Below are positions 12,597-63,495 of a stretch of 64,000 nt of DNA, one piece after another (the first letter of the stretch is position 1; each line of letters opens with the position of its first letter). Origin of the DNA: Odiellus spinosus (Eukaryota > Arthropoda > Arachnida > Opiliones > Phalangiidae). The notes beneath the pieces are model-generated. The model was given only the letters and a program-made list of their open reading frames with translations. It had not been told where the DNA came from and did no database searches. The stretch lies in NCBI GenBank assembly GCA_963920705.1, contig OY987236.1:12758190-12822189 (forward strand). Direction: 5' to 3'. A program made the position numbers and the translations under genes.

Positions 12597-13045
12597 TAAA
12601 GGCCCTATCTGCTCTTGAAAATCATCTTCCCTTATGCACACAACCTTGCTTTGACTGTACAATTATGATGACCAACGTCGTGATTAATGAGCTCAAAGGG
12701 ACTGTCTGCGATTTTAAACCCCTTTTAAAGTCGCCTTCTTTTCTAGCTTAGCAGACGACGTTTACCATAACAAACTGTACAATCAAAGCTAGGCTGTGTG
12801 CATTTTAAAGGTACAAATTTCAGAGCAGATGGGGCTAGATCTGAAATTTGCCCCTTTAAAATGCTCTTGCCTTCTGCACTCGGCTAGCTTTGACTGTACA
12901 ATTTGTTATGAAAAAAGGCGACTTTAAATGAGATTTTAAAACCGCGATAGTCCCTTTAAACAGACTATCTGCCTTTTTTAAATTCCCTTTAAAGTCAGCT
13001 TCTTTTCTAGCTTAGCAGACGACGTTGACCATAGGAAATTGTACA
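12597..13045. repeat. Cluster of nested group A MITE copies
   Basis: Several partial copies in both orientations are jammed together: TTAAAGGCCCTATCTGCTC at 12597, AAAGGGACTGTCTGCGATTTT near 12697, an inverted copy from about 12833 to 12962 ending GCGATAGTCCCTTTAA, and a further fragment to 13045. The diagnostic interior phrase TAGCTTAGCAGACGACGTT occurs twice. Complete copies are at 19362, 22756 and 29361. Confidence 0.7.
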
Positions 13046-13963: not shown

Positions 13964-16164
13964 TTATTTGTGTTCATCGTACTCTAAAAAGAGATATTGC
14001 TGGATACTAGTTGGTATTGGTAAATCTTTAATGTGTCTTAATCGCTTATGTCCCATTGAAGTTCTAATAGCGTAACGACAATAATGTTGTAGAGAGCGCG
14101 GTTTAGAAGCTATTTCCCTATACCATTCGTATTTATTCCTAAAACTAATCGATCTAGAGCTATTTTGAGCACTCTCCGTTGCCCCGCGGCGATTCGAATT
14201 CGAAGCTGCGGCCCAATTGTTACCGGGAGCATCTTCTCCCCCAAATTCTTGAAATCTGTGCCTACGAAGACCGTCGTTATTTACGCCTCCGTTGTCGAAA
14301 AACTCCAAATTAGGATTTTCATTCTGATTATGGTTCCAAAAGGGAAAACGGGGTAAGAAGTAATTGTGATGAGCCAGTTCATTATGATTTTGCGCGGCAG
14401 CGGCTGGCTGCAAATGGGGAAATTCTTCCGGTGGTGGATTTTGCCGTTGATCGAAAGGACGCGGTGATGTTGGAGGAACGGTCAAATTAAGGGAAGACAA
14501 TGGAGGAATGTGCAAGGAACTTTTGATGATTGCTTTTAATATAGTAAGATCCGTATTTCCTGGTCTCATTTCTGACTGAATCAACGTATAACCTCGTTGG
14601 TTGCAAATGTTGAAATTGGAACCGCATGATATTAAAAAGGCAGCCAAATCAGGCCTTCTTCGGAAGCGTACGCCATCGCTGAAACTAACATAGTGAAGCG
14701 GAGTTAAACCTGGAATATGAAGAATAAAATAAAATGAAGGAAACATAATAATTTCAAAACAAATTTAAAGTAAACATGGAACCTGACTCGAATATGGCTT
14801 GTCAAATTTATCAAGCAGAAAACTCGCGAATTTAACCATAAGAAATTCCCAAGGCTGTTTTAAAGTGTTTTTAATTGGCGCAAGATCAATTTGACAAGGC
14901 CAGACTAGAGTCAGGTTGCGTGTCTAATTTAAAATAATTGGTTTGAAAAAATTACGATAATGACCGGCGTAATCCGGCAAATTAACGTCGCAATTGTAGC
15001 CTTTCAATACTAGAAGTTTAAGTATCTCCGGAACCACGGCTTCCATTTCAAGATTATAAAGGACTGCATAGTCCAGAGAAGAGAATCCCGAACAATTTCT
15101 TAAATTAACATCAGAGCCGTGTCGCAAAAGTTCTTCCACACATTTTACCAATCCATGCATGACACAGAAATGCAATGGCGTATCTCCTACGCAAACACCG
15201 GGAAATTTTATAAATCTTTAATGTTTTATTAAAAAATTATGAAAAAAAGGATTCTAAAATCTTACCAGACTCTGAACCGGGTAGAGATAGGATATCTCTA
15301 CCAATGGCATTGTGCAAATGGGCTAAAATGCATTCTTCCAACCCTCGTTCAGCGGCGATGTACAGCGATGTTCTACCCTTTTCATCAACAGAATTGTAAT
15401 CGGCACCATATTGAATAAGTTCTTTAATACAAGCTGTATGACCATTAGCAGCGGCTAGGATACCAGAAGAAGATATTTAATAAGAATTAATGATTTTTAT
15501 CTTTATAAAAGCTCACCATACCTAAATGGAGAGGCGTGCTCCCACCGAGAAAAGGGACAGCTGGAATAACCGAATACAAATTCAAGTGGATTCTTTTAAA
15601 TTTGCGAGGATTTTTGTTACCAGTATAACAGCCTTTTTTGGAATATTTTGTCGAGACGCAACAGTCCGCTCCCGCATCAAGAAGCATTTTCAGGCACTCG
15701 TACTGGCCATTCTCCGCAGCCATATGAACTAAATTTAAAAAGTAGCCAAACTTAACATGGATAATAAAATAACTTAATAGACTAAATAGAGTAAAGTTTG
15801 ACGTACCTGCAGTTACATCAAATCGATCCTTGGCATTTAAATCAGCTTGAATTAATGATAAATATTAAATCCCAGCTCCTGGTACAATGTTTTATACCAT
15901 AATTTAAAAAGAAACAAACTTACCCCCATATTCGATTAAGAGTTTCAAACATACAGCATGGCCCTTTGCCGCTGCTGTCTGACACGGTGTTAAGTAATTT
16001 AGAGACATGTAGAATTGAGATTTCGTATATTCTTCCGCATTTACATTTACGTTTGATTCTAATAGACTCTTTAATAATAGAAAATTACCATTTTCTGCCG
16101 CTTCAACTAGGCTTTTACCCCTTTCAATCTGATTTGAATTTCTTCGATTATTATCAACCTCCAT
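13964..16164 (-). CDS. Ankyrin-repeat and SOCS-box protein (ASB-like)
   Basis: Six exons on minus: 15924-16164, 15807-15845, 15522-15728, 15266-15455, 14965-15186, 13964-14709; the junctions are phase 1. The start is ATG 16164 (MEVDNNRRN). The expected product is about 547 aa: some seven to eight ankyrin repeats (TPLHL, NGHTAC, GDTPLHF and GLTPLHY motifs), a disordered Asn/Pro-rich stretch, then a C-terminal SOCS box (SLQHYCRYAIR, LPIPTSIQQYL). SOCS boxes recruit elongin B/C and Cullin-5, so a substrate-adaptor role in ubiquitylation is inferred. Exon 4 has one extra base (run at 15420-15422): read literally, IKE is followed by a frameshift and an early TGA near 15385, although the repeat consensus continues in the next frame. 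The exon 5 donor (GTCATT) is weak; GTAATT nearby would add four residues. Confidence 0.88.
14780..14917. repeat. Group E MITE in an intron of the ASB-like gene
   Basis: Inverted ends AACCTGACTCG... and ...AGAGTCAGGTT flank a 138-bp unit whose arms share GGC(C)TTGTCAAATTGATC. A longer relative lies at 39835-40330. It sits in the last intron of the ankyrin/SOCS gene. Confidence 0.7.
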
Positions 16165-16663
16165 TCTCTTCGATTGCAAGGAAATAAATGAAAAACCGAG
16201 ACCAGACTCTTCAAACTAAAACTAAGCCTACTTTCAAAACTCCAGATGGCACTAAACGCCTTTTTTATTCAGGAGCCAAAAGCCGCGAAATATAAACTAC
16301 CTTTTTGCGTGTTTTATTTCCAGCATAGCGGGTAGAAAGAATAGTAGTAGAAGGCCATGCTCTAATTGGTTGAAAACCAACCAGTGTAAGGAGACAAATT
16401 TAACTAATAAATGAAACAAGATGGTCAAGCCCATAGGAATAGCTAGACCCCTGACATTGTAAAAGAGGCTGAAAGGAATGATTCTATAGCAGGGGTGTGT
16501 TATGCAGGCATAAACGCTCTTTAAACAATTTGAATGGCGTCTCGAGATTCCTTTAAACACGAAGTTGCGGAAATTTCTCGAGCCGACTATATGACCGTGA
16601 TCGTTTTTATGCGATATATTGAAAAAGACGAATATCCCCGCAGTCATTGCATTCAAATAATGT
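16165..16663. other. 5' flank of the ASB-like gene
   Basis: Presumed promoter region. It has no recognisable element and no coding frame with a domain. Confidence 0.3.
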
Positions 16664-17060
16664 TTTCCAAATCATGTTTTCCAAATCATGATTTGAAAAA
16701 CATGTTTTTCAAATCATGTTTTTCAAATCATGTTTTTCAAATCATGTTTTTCAAATCATGTTTTTCAAATCATGTTTTTCAAATCATGTTTTTCAAATCC
16801 TGTTTTTCAAAACCTGTTTTTCAAAACCTGTTTTTCAAAACCTGTTTTTCAAAACCTGTTTTTCAAAACCAGTTTTTCAAAACCAGTTTTTCAAAACCAG
16901 TTTTTCAAAACCTGTTTTTCAAAACCTGTTTTTCAAAACCTGTTTTTCAAAACCTGTTTTTCAAAACCTGTTTTTCAAAACCTGTTTTTCAAAACCTGTT
17001 TTTCAAAACATGTTTTTCAAAACATGTTTTTCAAAACATGTTTTTCAAAACATGTTTTTT
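16664..17060. repeat. 14-bp minisatellite, about 28 units
   Basis: Tandem units of TGTTTTTCAAAWCM. Variants lie in blocks: units ending TCATG first, then CCTG, then three CCAG units, then CCTG again, then CATG. Because 14 is not a multiple of three and the unit lacks stops, all three plus frames stay open; these frames are not genes. Confidence 0.95.
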
Positions 17061-17061
17061 A

Positions 17062-17527
17062 TTACTGACAGACTAGAACTCAAAACCGCATATGCTCCCT
17101 TCGCGACGACTTGTTTATTGTTTTCGAGTTTTCATTACTGACAGACTAACACTCAACACGCATAAGCCCCCTTACTATCTCGTTCGCGACGACTTGTTTA
17201 TTGTTTTCGAGTTTTCATTACTGACAGACTAACACTCAACACGCATAAGCCCCCTTACTATCTCGTTCGCGACGACTTGTTTATTGTTTTCGAGTTTTCA
17301 TTACTGACAGACTAACACTCAACACGCATAAGCCCCCTTAATATCTCGTTCGCGACGACTTGTTTATTGTTTTCGAGTTTTCATTACTGACAGACTAACA
17401 CTCAACACGCATAAGCTCCCTTACTATCTCGTTCGCGACGACTTGTTTATTGTTTTCGAGTTTTCATTACTGACAGACTAGAACTCAACAAGCATAAGCT
17501 CCCTTACTATCTCGTTCGCGACTAGTT
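17062..17527. repeat. 83-bp tandem satellite, about five and a half units
   Basis: The phrase ATTACTGACAGACTA starts at 17062, 17134, 17217, 17300, 17383 and 17466. The last five starts are exactly 83 bases apart; the first unit is 72 bases. Each unit has CTCGTTCGCGACGACTTG and GTTTTCGAGTTTTC. It directly abuts the 14-bp minisatellite. Confidence 0.95.
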
Positions 17528-18022
17528 GTTTTCGATACGATGACGTTTTTCGTCATTTCTGGGACACCGACTTCAGACTTCAGACTTCAGACTTCAGACT
17601 ACCAGCACGACTCAAAACACTAGCTAGAACCTATACAAGTATAGGGTCTAGCTAAAAATGCGAAAATTCTAATATTGCCTTGCCAAAGCAAGGCTTTCTA
17701 CTCCTCTTCTTTTTACTCTCTATATTTCCAGTGACCATCGGAATAATAGAAAATCATGTAGAAAAGAAAAAAAAGACCAACTCGTAATTTTTCTTTAAGA
17801 AATTTATTCATTATTAAATCCTACATTAGTTTCTTATAAGTGTACCTAGAATTCATTGTACTAAACCCAACTCCACGATTCACCCTGAGAGTTCCCCTTC
17901 TAAAAATGGCCACATGATTAATATTTAGAAATATTTAACACAGTTTCAACTTAGTAATATCATCATTTTGGCCAAAATATTGTTCGATAGTTAAGCCTAT
18001 TTATGGCAGACTTCTCGCGCCG
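17528..18022. other. Spacer with small hairpins
   Basis: It holds a short CTTCAGACTT repeat at about 17570-17598 and two hairpins: 17621-17654 (TAGCTAGAACCTATAC and its complement) and about 17675-17695 (GCCTTGC...GCAAGGC). No gene is seen. Confidence 0.45.
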
Positions 18023-18030
18023 GTCTTGCC
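18023..18030. repeat. Left 8-bp target-site duplication
   Basis: GTCTTGCC directly precedes the left inverted repeat and is identical to 19212-19219 just after the right one. Confidence 0.85.
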
Positions 18031-19211
18031 CATAGATATCGTATATATAACTGGCTAGATACATTTCCCTGGGTTAGGCCCGAGGAGTAAAACGCGGAGG
18101 GGACAAATAGCAGACGACGGCTATTATCTGGGGAAAAATCTGAACAGCGCCATCTATATTAGATACCTGGAACCTCTAATTAAGTGCTTTTTCAAAAACC
18201 CGCGGGAATTTTTGTTTCTTTTGTAAAGAAACTATAAGAAATAAAACTCGGCTATTTTTGAAGCAAGTGTTTTTTTTTAATACAAAATGGTTAAAACCTG
18301 TTCGTTTTCACATTGCCGTAATAAGTTAACCACTAGAAAAGAAATATCTTTTCACATGTATGAACAAAACTACTCAAGAATTAAGTAAATTAATAACTAA
18401 TATCATGCAAATTTATAGATTTCCCATATCCAACCCGGAATTACATGCCAAATGGATTGAGGCTGTTGATTTAGATGATTTTAGGCCTAATTCCAATTCC
18501 TTCATTTGCAGCGAACATTTTTTGGAAAGTGATATTGTCCACCGAAATGGCAAACGATTTCTTTCAAAGCAAGCAATACCTTCCAAGGTTTATACTTAAG
18601 CAATTACACTTTTTCGTAGTGTTTAATCAACAATTTTTTATTTATACGAAGAATCTGCAAAAACCGACGTATTCTGATGTTTTACCTCTAAATTTTGATC
18701 ATGAAACTTTGCGTGTAGGTAATTTAATTGAATCTATTTGAAAAGTATTACGGTTCCCTTGTCATGCAAAGTCAAAATATTCACCCATTTTGCTCGTCTT
18801 GTAGTCAGTTCTAGAACTTGTATCGTAATTGTAAGCAGAGTTAAACTGAAATTCCATTATAGAGAAGGCCAAGGGTTAGCGAACCAAATAATATTTATTG
18901 ATTTAAATAATATATATGTTATATTTACCTTTTAAAAATTGATGGATCATGTAAAAAACAACTTTTTTAACACGTTTTGAGCCGATTTCATTCTCTTCTG
19001 TCGAATAATATTAAAAAAAAAACATTTTCTGGCCGAAGCGGGAAAATTAAACTTCTCGCATTTTGAGCTTTCCATTTTCGGGTATAGATGGCGCTGATCT
19101 GATTTTTCCCCAGCATTGTAGGTCTCCATAGCCGTAGTCTGCTATCTATACCTCCCGTATTTTCCCTCGATTTAATACGGTATCTAGCCAGTTATATATA
19201 CGATATCTATG
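18031..19211 (+). mobile_element. P-element-like DNA transposon, short derivative
   Basis: The 1,181-bp unit begins CATAGATATCGTATATATAA and ends with the exact complement. Imperfect terminal inverted repeats of about 128 bp run 18031-18157 and 19083-19211, with perfect outer ~32 bases and an inner perfect block around GCGCCATCTATA. It is flanked by an identical 8-base direct repeat GTCTTGCC (18023-18030 and 19212-19219), the target-duplication length of P elements. The only gene inside encodes a THAP zinc finger, the DNA-binding domain of P-element transposases. No catalytic region is present, so the copy is non-autonomous. hAT elements also make 8-bp duplications, but the THAP domain favours P. 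Confidence 0.85.
18287..18714 (+). CDS. THAP-domain protein inside the P-like element
   Basis: Exon 1 18287-18357 (MVKTCSFSHCRNKL...) ends ...CACAT|GTATGA. A 61-bp intron ends TTTATAG|A, and exon 2 starts at 18419. Joined, it reads ISFHIFP then WIEAV...FICSEHF...AIPS, the complete C2CH THAP signature: C-x4-C, then C-x2-H, plus the AIPS box. A possible third exon 18652-18714 (after AAG|GTTTAT) ends at a GTAGGT donor, with a final mini-exon (7 codons and stop) near 18840. If exon 2 is not spliced onward it stops at 18599. In all cases the product is little more than a DNA-binding domain of about 80-110 residues. THAP domains bind transposon ends; a truncated one could act as a repressor, which is inference. 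Confidence 0.75.
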
Positions 19212-19219
19212 GTCTTGCC
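19212..19219. repeat. Right 8-bp target-site duplication
   Basis: GTCTTGCC follows the right inverted repeat and matches 18023-18030 exactly. Confidence 0.85.
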
Positions 19220-19854: not shown

Positions 19855-22800
19855 TCACCAAACAAAATAGTCCTTGGTCGATCTACAATTTCGGGTACTA
19901 CCACACCATCTCGTTTCCCTAACAGGGGGGCATTGTTTTCCACCCGGTTGTGGGTGTTTTAGTATTTGTTTGTGTCTGGTTGACTCGCCGAAGGAACACG
20001 TCTTGCTGCAGGGACTCCATTCGGACCATTCACTCACTTTACAAGGTCTGGGTAATTTTGGCTCTGGATCAAAATCAAATTTAAAAGACGAGACGTTTTT
20101 TGTAACCATTTGCATAAAAAAGTTAAAAAAAACGTAACCTTCAATCAAAAAATAAACCGTGTCAATTTATAAAAGTCAAGATTTTATTTAAAATCTAGGC
20201 GGAAAAAGGGTTGTACTGTGATAAGGTCAAAACTTTCAATAAGAAAATATTCAAGGGCGATACTAACCAAAAATTTAAATTGAAAATATTTGAATATTAT
20301 AATAAAGATCAACGTTTGCTTCAATCCTTCAAACTGACATAAAGAGTTGCTAAACTGGTAATAACTTGGGTTATTAGAGCAATAAAATCAGCTTCAGAGG
20401 TAGAGTCAAGCGAAACCACAAGTAAAATCGAGGCTAGGATTAGACCACTGGACTAATTATATATAATTCGTCCATGATCGACCCAATAAATGAAAATGTC
20501 ATTTTTTTCCGCTAATGGGAGGGCAGTCTTACTTTAAAGTTAAAATAATACAATATGAAACTTAAAACTTACTCTTTTTAATTTTATTTCTTCTATATTT
20601 CTTTTTGGGTTCTTGGTCATCCAGGGCCGTCGGGCTCGATACTTTATCAACCAATTCCCGCGCTAGGCCGTCTCGAGTGACGACGTCATTGTTGACCCTA
20701 GAGCCCAGATTCACTTTAGGAGGTGAAGTAACAGCGGTGCGTCCATCGTGTACCGCCGTGTCTCTCTGAAGACCCAAGAGCCTCTTCAACTCAAAATTAT
20801 CCTCCTTCTTTACAAAGTCTAATTCCTCAGTTTCAACAATACGCGCTTTGTTCTTATCGTGTCTGTGATGATGCGAACCCACATCCGTCAGTTTGCTATA
20901 GGTTAGACAAATACACCCGAAAGAAGTTACGGATAAGTAAAGAAAAAGGTGGAAGGACAGGGCATCATCCGAGGTCCCAAATACCTTTGAGCCCCGATGG
21001 GTTTCTTCCTGGTTAAGGGGATTAAGTGATGCACGTCGTACGTCTCTAAGAGCGTCAAACGGACGAGTGCTAGCTTGGGAAGATTCTTCTTGTGGGGGTA
21101 GAAGAAGGAATTGGCAGGGTGGCTCGGGAAATGGGCCGTGATGCGTGTCATCTTAGTCCTGGGCACCGTGTCCCAATTGGGCGCAGTAAAAGTGAACCCG
21201 TTATCAGTCCCGCCGTCGACCAGTTCCGAATCAATTTGAATCGATTTCACCCAATTGTGACGCCCTTCGTGCGAAGGACAAAGCTCCAAACTGTCCACTC
21301 CCACGAACCAATCGGGACTGGGAACGATTCGACTCATCAGCGATAACTAAGTGAATTCAAATAAGCTTAATCACGCCCAAAAATACAAAAGAATAAATTT
21401 CAGGTATAGATAGAGCATTCTTGGCGTGAATGATTCTAATTCCAAAAACCATTGCAAAATTTTGTTCGTGAAAAACTACAAGCGAATTTAACTTAGTGCT
21501 CTAGAGTAAGAGAAATCACCCTGAAAGCAAGCTTTATATTCCTCTGAGCGAGTCAGTCTAGACCATCGTCTAGCAACCTTTTTTTGTTCGACTCGCTGGG
21601 CAACATTTTTTTTCTGTTTTTGTCGAGATAACATTGAAAAAGAGCATTTTATTATTTAAAAATTGACTTTCCATTGCTCTATATAATATTGAATAAGAGC
21701 AAATAAACTTTCTGCAAGATTAAATGGAATTCGCTATAAACGAAAATAAATATATACAATAACCAATGAAGATAAACAGATCATTCTGATATTTACACAT
21801 TGTTATTGAATGACTGTTAAAAACCCGAACTGCGGCGTACTCGTGTTTAAAGTGAAAATAACTCTATTAATGCTAAAGAAGTGTTTCATCATATTTGCGC
21901 ATCATGTCACTGTGTTCATTGCGAGAAGTCATATATCTAATAATTTGAAATTACTTTCAAGGTTTTCGGATGGTTCCCCAAAAATGACCAATTGATATAG
22001 CATTTCTGCAATTATCAATTTAATAAGCTTTAATAAGTATTATAAACGGCCGTTTATAATCTTTAAGCCATTTATAATCAAAACAATAAGGTGTTTTTGA
22101 CTGCCAAGAATGCTCCGAATGTCCGTGTTAGTTTCTGTTATTACCCTGGTATGGTTCGTATCGACCATGAACTCTGATTCCGATATTCCCGCGCCTTGCT
22201 GGATTTCAGGCGAATAGAACTCGTCAAGTATGCCAGAGTGTCCACCTTGGGCCTCTTGAACCAGGCGATCCGTTTTACCCGTCTCCAGGAACAGTTTCAT
22301 GCCGTCCGAAGCCGTACCTCCGATCCTCCATAGTCTATATTTGTTATCGTGGCTACGACCTATAACCGAGACATGATACGATTAAGGTTATTTTCCAAGA
22401 ATTTTAAAATTACTCTTACACCTGTTCGGGGAAACTTCGAAAAACCCTTAATTTACATAATTTCCGTTACGCTCGAAGCTTTTTACCTCACGATTTTTTC
22501 TGGAATTTTGATTTTGAAAAAGGCGCAGGGCCAATAATAGCGTAACGACTTCGTACTAATAGTAGATGTTAAATTATTTAGAAGTAGAAAAATGAAGTTA
22601 TATCAACAACAGACTAATTTCTGAGCAATAGTGGCGTTCACATTTAATCGAAACTTTGAAACCTTTCTCAATCGTTTTGGAAGTTAGGTCAAACCGTGAA
22701 ATTTTGAGGTTAACTGTAGAGGTGTTTCGTCAAAAATGCCCAGTGTGAAAGTAGCTTAAAGGCCTCATCTGCTCTGACATTTGCCCCTATAAAATCATCT

Positions 22801-41658: not shown

Positions 41659-41830
41659 TAGAGATCGGGGTTTGGAGAAAATAATCCACAACTATCAGTT
41701 AATCATAAAAAAATAATCGTGAAATTATTCGCGATTACATTGGATTTATCATAGACTTTCCTCGAAAAATTTGAAGTTATGAATAAAGATAAAATAATCA
41801 GAAATTTTCTTGTCCAAACCCCGATCTCTA
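41659..41830. repeat. hAT-type MITE (group D), copy 1
   Basis: Inverted ends TAGAGATCGGGGTTTGG and CCAAACCCCGATCTCTA are flanked on both sides by the identical 8-mer CTTTAGTT. It is inserted in the degenerate ~28-bp array. Confidence 0.88.
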
Positions 41831-57623: not shown

Positions 57624-58019
57624 TTTTCAGACGAGGCGTAACTAGCCTGTTTAATCAGATTTAACCGAGGTTTAATCAGATTTAACCGAGGTTTAATCAG
57701 ATTTAACCGAGGTTTAATCAGATTTAACCGAGGTTTAATCAGATTTAACCGAGGTTTAATCAGATTTAACCGAGGTTTAATCAGATTTAACCGAGGTTTA
57801 ATCAGATTTAACCGAGGTTTAATCAGATTTAACCGAGGTTTAATCAGATTTAACCGAGGTTTAATCAGATTTAACCGAGGTTTAATCAGATTTAACCGAG
57901 GTTTAATCAGATTTAACCGAGGTTTAATCACAATTAACCGAGGTTTATTGAACTGAGAAGGCTATGAAAACCTCGGTTAAATCTGATTAAACCACGGCTA
58001 ATTACACCTCATCTGAAAA
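57624..58019. repeat. Inverted-repeat-bounded 21-bp minisatellite
   Basis: Left end TTTTCAGACGAGGCGTAACT and right end complement of TTTTCAGATGAGGTGTAATT enclose 13 nearly identical tandem units of TTTAATCAGATTTAACCGAG (+G), 57650-57945. A single unit in inverted orientation (57968-57992) precedes the right end. The open minus frame (IKPRLNL repeated) is a product of the 21-bp period. Confidence 0.88.
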
Positions 58020-62057: not shown

Positions 62058-63103
62058 TAAAAAATAAAATGCCAAATGCAGTACGGAAAAGGTTTCAATA
62101 TTTAAATTAATGTAAAAAATGTTTTGATTTCGATCATTCATCTTTATTTACAATTTAAACCACCTTAAATTGTCAGCACCTACAATACTAGACTATTTAT
62201 TATCTTGGTAAATAATTCCTTTATAGATAAAGGAAGCCTATCTTTGTACACGCTGCAATTCAAGATGGAAAAGATAATATAAAATCCGAGTTCAAATTAG
62301 CATAAACATATTACGCCTATTCCCCTTCTCACGTTTACATACCCAACCGTGAATATATTTTTGCCTGCCATTTTCCCTTTAAAATACGCTTGACTAGAGG
62401 ACACTGATGCTAACATAATCCTGATCGTGATGGAATGCGGTTATTCATTGTGGCCAATGACCAAGAAAAGAGACAAAAAAAAAAAAAAAAAAAAAAAGAG
62501 GAGGAGGAAATGGAGAATGATGGCTAGGAGGAAAGGAAAATAGATGGATGAGTCGCGAGCCCCGATTTTTTTAAAGTTTTTCATCCCCATCAGTGCGAGC
62601 CAAATATCAAACGCCTTTTCCTTGTCCAAGTTAGAATGGTCACCCCCTTCTCACTCTCCATCACCCACTCTTTGCGCGAATCGGAGAATACATAACAGAC
62701 GATACTAAAAGCAAAGTTTTTCGCAATGATTAAGGGTTAGGGACTTCATTTTTTGCAAAAGTGTTTCTTTTAAAATATTTGATACGAATATCATCCATTT
62801 GAAGGGATTTCTGTAAAATCTCTCCACCAATTACGCGATTACGTAACTGATTCCAGCCTTTGTTCATGCAAAATACGTACTGAGAAAAATTCTAATGATA
62901 TCGGCAGTGAACACGAACTAAGCCTAAAAAATCGTAGTTCATATGGCATAAATATTATTTAAGAAAAACGATTTTAGTTGCACGCGCCATCTGATCGTTA
63001 CGTCAGCCAAATTCAACTACTCTATAAACAAATTCTGCGATGAGTTTGCTAAAAAACGTATGTTTTGATTAAAAACAATTATAGCGCTATATTCTGAATT
63101 CGC
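62058..63103. other. No gene seen; poly-A tract
   Basis: Contains an A(22) run at about 62478-62499 followed by GAGGAGGAGG. No exon is supported. Confidence 0.35.
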
Positions 63104-63318: not shown

Positions 63319-63495
63319 TAGAGATCGGGGTTTGGACAAGAAAATTTCTGATTATTTTATCTTTATTCATAACTTAAAATTTTTCGAGGAAAGTCTATGA
63401 TAAATCCAATGTAATCGCGAATAATCCGATTATTTTTTTATGATTAACTGATTAACTGATGGTTGTGGATTATTTTGTCCAAACCCCGATCTCTA
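63319..63495. repeat. hAT-type MITE (group D), copy 4
   Basis: Perfect ends TAGAGATCGGGGTTTGGACA / complement; flanked by the identical 8-mer GAACTCTG on both sides. Confidence 0.9.

Follow-up and report, generated by a model that had tools for sequence, protein, structure and literature searches.

We detected a 1,181-bp insertion unit at positions 18031-19211 of the window, i.e., the whole 64,000-nucleotide stretch of Odiellus spinosus DNA that was analysed, and we consider it quite likely that this unit is a P-type DNA transposon that is non-autonomous and reduced in its interior. Provisionally, the element is regarded as an added example of a known element type and as a fairly ordinary one, although its subterminal blocks are somewhat unusual in how large they are and in that one of them (block A) is displaced by 10 bp.

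The outer ends of the unit read CATAGATATCG...CGATATCTATG, and they are bordered by two perfect copies of GTCTTGCC (18023-18030 on the left and 19212-19219 on the right, neither assigned to a strand), an 8-bp target-site duplication as made by members of the P superfamily. In a scan for perfect terminal inverted repeats (TIRs) of at least 10 bp combined with a perfect 8-bp repeat, two of the five rows obtained in the window corresponded to this element, and the same scan returned nothing in all 20 of the 20 Markov-1 simulated windows that served as the control for chance. With 8-bp ends and an 8-bp repeat, seven rows were found in the window vs eight summed over the 20 simulations. The base preceding the left copy, a G at 18022, is also repeated, which extends the direct repeat to nine bases (GGTCTTGCC at 18022-18030 and 19211-19219). 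A duplication length of 8 bp rather than 9 bp is preferred, not proved, because 9 bp would take the last G of the element and result in unequal ends, and because only 8 bp leaves symmetrical ends (CATAG...CTATG). Both the coordinates and the simulations confirm what a preliminary description of this DNA had reported, namely a 1,181-bp unit whose ends are inverted and whose 8-bp duplication is perfect.

The outermost 32 bp of the two arms are inverted perfectly, with no mismatches (left TIR at 18031-18062 on the + strand; right TIR at 19180-19211 on the - strand). They start with CAT, and their length is in line with the approximately 30 bp of P-superfamily TIRs (27-31 bp in Anopheles, 31 bp in the fly). 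Local alignment of the 300-bp arms gave a score of 172, vs a maximum of 69 among 500 base shuffles, and inside the TIRs the inverted similarity is concentrated in two blocks. Block A (ATAGCAGACGACGGCTAT; 17/18 identical) is separated from the TIR by 44 bp in the left arm (18107-18124, +) and by 34 bp in the right arm (19128-19145, -), corresponding to offsets of 77-94 bp from the left end and 67-84 bp from the right end, i.e., 10 bp further in on the left. Block B, which is 31 bp long and holds GCGCCATCTAT, starts in the left arm 3 bp past the end of block A (18128-18158, +) and is identical in 29 of 31 positions to its counterpart in the right arm (19083-19113, -), with offsets of 98-128 bp from the left end and 99-129 bp from the right, i.e., 1 bp nearer on the left. 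With the TIRs removed from the arms, block B scored 26 and the stretch with block A 16, vs a simulated maximum of 13, and in this region neither score was equalled in any of the 200 simulated arm pairs. Blocks A and B are, as in the P superfamily, subterminal inverted repeats with an end-specific spacing.

The arms had previously been described as imperfect TIRs of approximately 128 bp, four times longer than those of the fly P element, which would represent an unusual P architecture. The inverted similarity over approximately 128 bp is real, but it consists of a 32-bp TIR plus blocks A and B, and one continuous TIR of that length was rejected because the inner blocks sit at different offsets on the left and the right. 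The claim of an unusual architecture is not supported in the form given either, as the perfect TIR of 32 bp is close to those of the fly and Anopheles, and the inner similarity represents separate subterminal blocks, which also occur in P, with 11 bp, and in Pdre2, with 12 bp, but are larger here. Besides, long TIRs would be no novelty in the P superfamily, with the 0.5-1.2 kb TIRs of Galileo already published. Such large blocks with one 10-bp shift were not found described in the accessible parts of the open-licence literature.

The core of block B, AGATGGCGC, occurs three times in the window vs 0.14 times expected; since two of the three occurrences are the two arms, this excess amounts to one element. 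The third occurrence is located outside the element, at 62984-62992. The core presumably resembles the insect CTCF core. Sites of the fly P transposase type, scored against the fly consensus, were found within the element four times at 8/10 vs 3.8 times expected, and a fly-type THAP site was discarded as no more frequent than by chance.

The element also contains an 83-codon frame for a complete THAP DNA-binding domain, distributed over two putative exons, which was absent from the preliminary description. Putative exon 1 runs from an ATG to the donor GTATGA (18287-18357, +), and is followed by a putative 61-bp intron, GTATGA...TTTATAG (18358-18418, +), and putative exon 2 (18419-18599, +), with the stop TAA at 18597-18599. 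Joined across this putative GT...AG intron, the two exons would encode 83 residues, of which residues 5-79 match the THAP domain (Pfam PF05485) with an E-value of 3.1e-15 and 57.1 bits, vs 43.6 bits for the unspliced frame; the frame and the domain score both suggest splicing. All eight key THAP residues are kept (C5, C10, P26, W36, C54, H57, F58, and P78); the key residues given for the THAP domain of the Galileo transposase, in the accessible part of its description, are two C, P, W, C, H, F, and P. A possible donor at 18587/18588 (AAG followed by GTTTAT) could lead to another short exon, and with an alternative last exon the THAP frame would comprise 109 or 126 codons. A third, transposase-like exon was considered and rejected, as the 17 acceptor positions listed gave at most 126 residues in total and the 109-residue variant contained THAP only. 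On the + strand, no AATAAA is present 3' of the stop within the element, where only ATTAAA occurs, at 19010 and 19046.

When compared with the sequences in the PDB, the THAP frame matched THAP1 with an E-value of 2.7e-14. The nearest solved THAP chains were those of THAP1 and THAP2, which are host-type THAP proteins, and the six sequence matches up to E 10 included no chain of a P-element transposase. Since the THAP domains of P elements diverge, this result argues neither for a P identity nor strongly against it.

The AT-rich interior of the element (18600-19082, not assigned to a strand) has no protein domain detectable with Pfam in six frames, and besides THAP no Pfam family was found in six frames of the whole element up to E 10. 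Neither an RNase-H-like domain nor any other transposase domain was found in the six frames of this copy, and with THAP as the only domain it cannot make a transposase. The missing transposase domain is what would be expected of a non-autonomous copy, and most likely the element cannot move without help. As the search of this copy did not reveal the defining transposase, we file the element as P-like and not as a proven member of the superfamily.

The combination of a THAP domain and an 8-bp duplication favours P, because among the groups with THAP domains in the accessible literature, i.e., P, Kolobok, and ISL2EU, only P makes duplications of 8 bp. Together with a CAT... terminus like that of Pdre2 (CATACCTGTCAAC), these two features support the P-like identity that had been suggested earlier. 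Kolobok and ISL2EU transposons can carry THAP domains too, but it is exceedingly improbable that the element belongs to either type. In the accessible descriptions, Kolobok makes a TTAA duplication, with ends that are AG in the copies listed (PMC6004289) and are otherwise described as 5'-RR, and ISL2EU makes an AT duplication (PMC4482050), whereas the element studied here is flanked by the 8-bp GTCTTGCC and has the ends CA...TG. The duplication already contradicts both identities, and on this basis they were rejected.

Another explanation, which we regard as rather unlikely, is that the element is a MITE of a different superfamily with duplications of 8 or 8-9 bp (hAT, Merlin, or Phantom-type Mutator), with a THAP exon captured from a host gene or a transposon. 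As the transposase is absent, the ends and the THAP domain are all that indicates the superfamily; the duplications given in the accessible literature are 8-9 bp for Merlin and 5-8 bp for hAT, the repeat comprises nine bases when the last G is counted, and the nearest solved THAP sequences are host-type proteins. On the other hand, the CAT terminus, the 32-bp TIR, the subterminal blocks, and the THAP domain jointly fit P, the THAP frame is located on the left, 5' side, where a P transposase would have its N-terminal exon, and a 9-bp duplication would leave the ends unequal. We give very little credence to a dead P-like shell with a domesticated THAP gene, the peptide of which would be kept for host use: the frame is open and all eight key residues are intact, but the ends and the duplication are also still perfect, which better fits a young insertion. 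A non-autonomous transposon of the P type is thus the reading that we retain.

Comparison with known P-superfamily elements, for which we draw on the accessible parts of the papers cited, indicates a general plan that the element has in common with the fly P element, namely a TIR of approximately 31/32 bp plus subterminal inverted repeats. The fly element has been described with a 31-bp TIR, 11-bp subterminal repeats, 8-bp duplications, and unequally spaced transposase sites that lie further in than the TIR, by 9 bp at one end and 21 bp at the other, the 9 bp being at the left end (PMC7776569), while these sites have elsewhere been placed at 53-63 (5') and 41-51 (3') (PMC3688188). As these two sources assign the longer spacing to different ends, we make no claim of a shared polarity with the fly P element. 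The P elements of Anopheles gambiae have 27-31-bp TIRs, perfect 8-bp duplications, and THAP domains in all of their putative transposases, and they give short P-MITE derivatives with ends conserved over about 100 bp (PMC1562414). The element resembles these mosquito elements in its TIR of approximately 30 bp, its 8-bp duplication, its THAP domain, and its shortness, but the interiors of the P-MITEs are described as unrelated to P, whereas the element retains a THAP frame.

The closest plan appears to be that of KP of Drosophila melanogaster, which is without the canonical bases 809-2561 and encodes a 207-residue repressor (PMC4938643). KP is a short P derivative that retains its two ends together with the coding part for the N-terminus, which the element would resemble; unlike KP, the element has a different sequence and a THAP frame of 83 codons, or 109/126 with the alternative last exon, and the 83-codon frame may lack the part involved in the dimerisation of KP. 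The zebrafish Pdre2 shares with the element the CAT start, a TIR combined with subterminal inverted repeats, and 8-bp duplications (PMC10983969). Its TIR is 13 bp, its subterminal repeat 12 bp, and its spacers about 400 bp long, whereas the element has a 32-bp TIR with blocks of 18 and 31 bp near it. Galileo, a further member of the P superfamily, makes duplications of 7 bp. It is similar to the element in having longer-than-usual inverted repeats with THAP sites inside them (PMC3688188), but its long TIRs contain tandem repeats, in contrast to the 32 bp plus two short blocks found here.

No second copy of the element was found elsewhere within the 64-kb window. The collections scanned beyond it are viral and prokaryotic, and an animal transposon is therefore unlikely to be present in them: the exact TIR was found in neither viral_contigs nor genome_contigs (0 in both), none of the pattern-matching stretches for the THAP protein was confirmed (0 of 9 in viral_contigs and 0 of 108 in genome_contigs), the THAP protein had no match to phages, and block B was not found in viral_contigs. 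Block A was found at three loci in viral_contigs, with isolated alignments to the element of at most 20 bases, which we take as coincidence. The genes in the window, which point to an animal host, encode a nuclear receptor, a BRO1-domain protein, a protein with a spondin-like TSP1 domain, and an ankyrin/SOCS-box protein, and the element is flanked by the SOCS-box/ankyrin gene region (13964-16215, -) and a TSP1 exon (19855-20166, -). Two adjoining tandem arrays are found shortly before the element, at 16661-17059 (14-bp unit, 28.5 copies) and 17100-17531 (83-bp unit, 5.2 copies), and another array, with a 21-bp unit, 14.2 copies, 99% matches, and both strands open, is located at 57649-57947.

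The window also contains a pair of MITEs in opposite orientation (41659-41830 and 63319-63495; 172 and 177 bp), with the ends TAGAGATCGGGGTT and differing perfect 8-bp duplications (CTTTAGTT and GAACTCTG). The alignment of the two copies contains gaps of 8 and 3 bases and 169 aligned bases, of which 165 are identical; the pair looks recently mobile. Based on their ends and duplication, we assume them to be hAT-like. A palindrome-like unit of 111 bp at 12783-12893 is perhaps another MITE; its inverted ends (TCAAAGCTAG) are 10 bp long, and its 8-bp repeat (CTGTACAA) is perfect.

Considering the structure of the element, we hypothesize that a full-length relative would supply a P-type transposase. 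The THAP domain of this transposase would bind subterminal sites, for which block A, with its unequal spacing at the two ends, is a candidate, and the enzyme would cut at the 32-bp TIRs, with insertion at a staggered cut giving the 8-bp duplication. With less certainty, a THAP-only peptide, if made, could hold the same sites and dampen the activity of the full transposase, in the manner of the KP polypeptide in Drosophila. A more specific scheme can be drawn for a P-type lineage with two large and well-preserved subterminal blocks at its ends, in which block A would be the equivalent of the asymmetric 9/21-bp sites of the fly, block B a second signal, and the THAP peptide a built-in repressor. 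This scheme, which we consider unlikely, is a joint one: a THAP-only peptide would compete for block A, which lies 10 bp (about one helical turn) further in at one end than at the other, and block B, fixed at 98/99 bp with AGATGGCGC inside, would act as a signal for the transposase or for a host protein.

As it stands, the element is a single copy of an expected kind. If it is P-like, it would add to the superfamily a derivative of about the size of KP that has kept its THAP frame and in which the TIR and two subterminal blocks are defined. The well-kept ends could be used for finding an autonomous partner or working relatives. With the unequal spacing of block A, it could be tested directly whether asymmetric synapsis, as proposed for the fly P element, also applies elsewhere in the superfamily.
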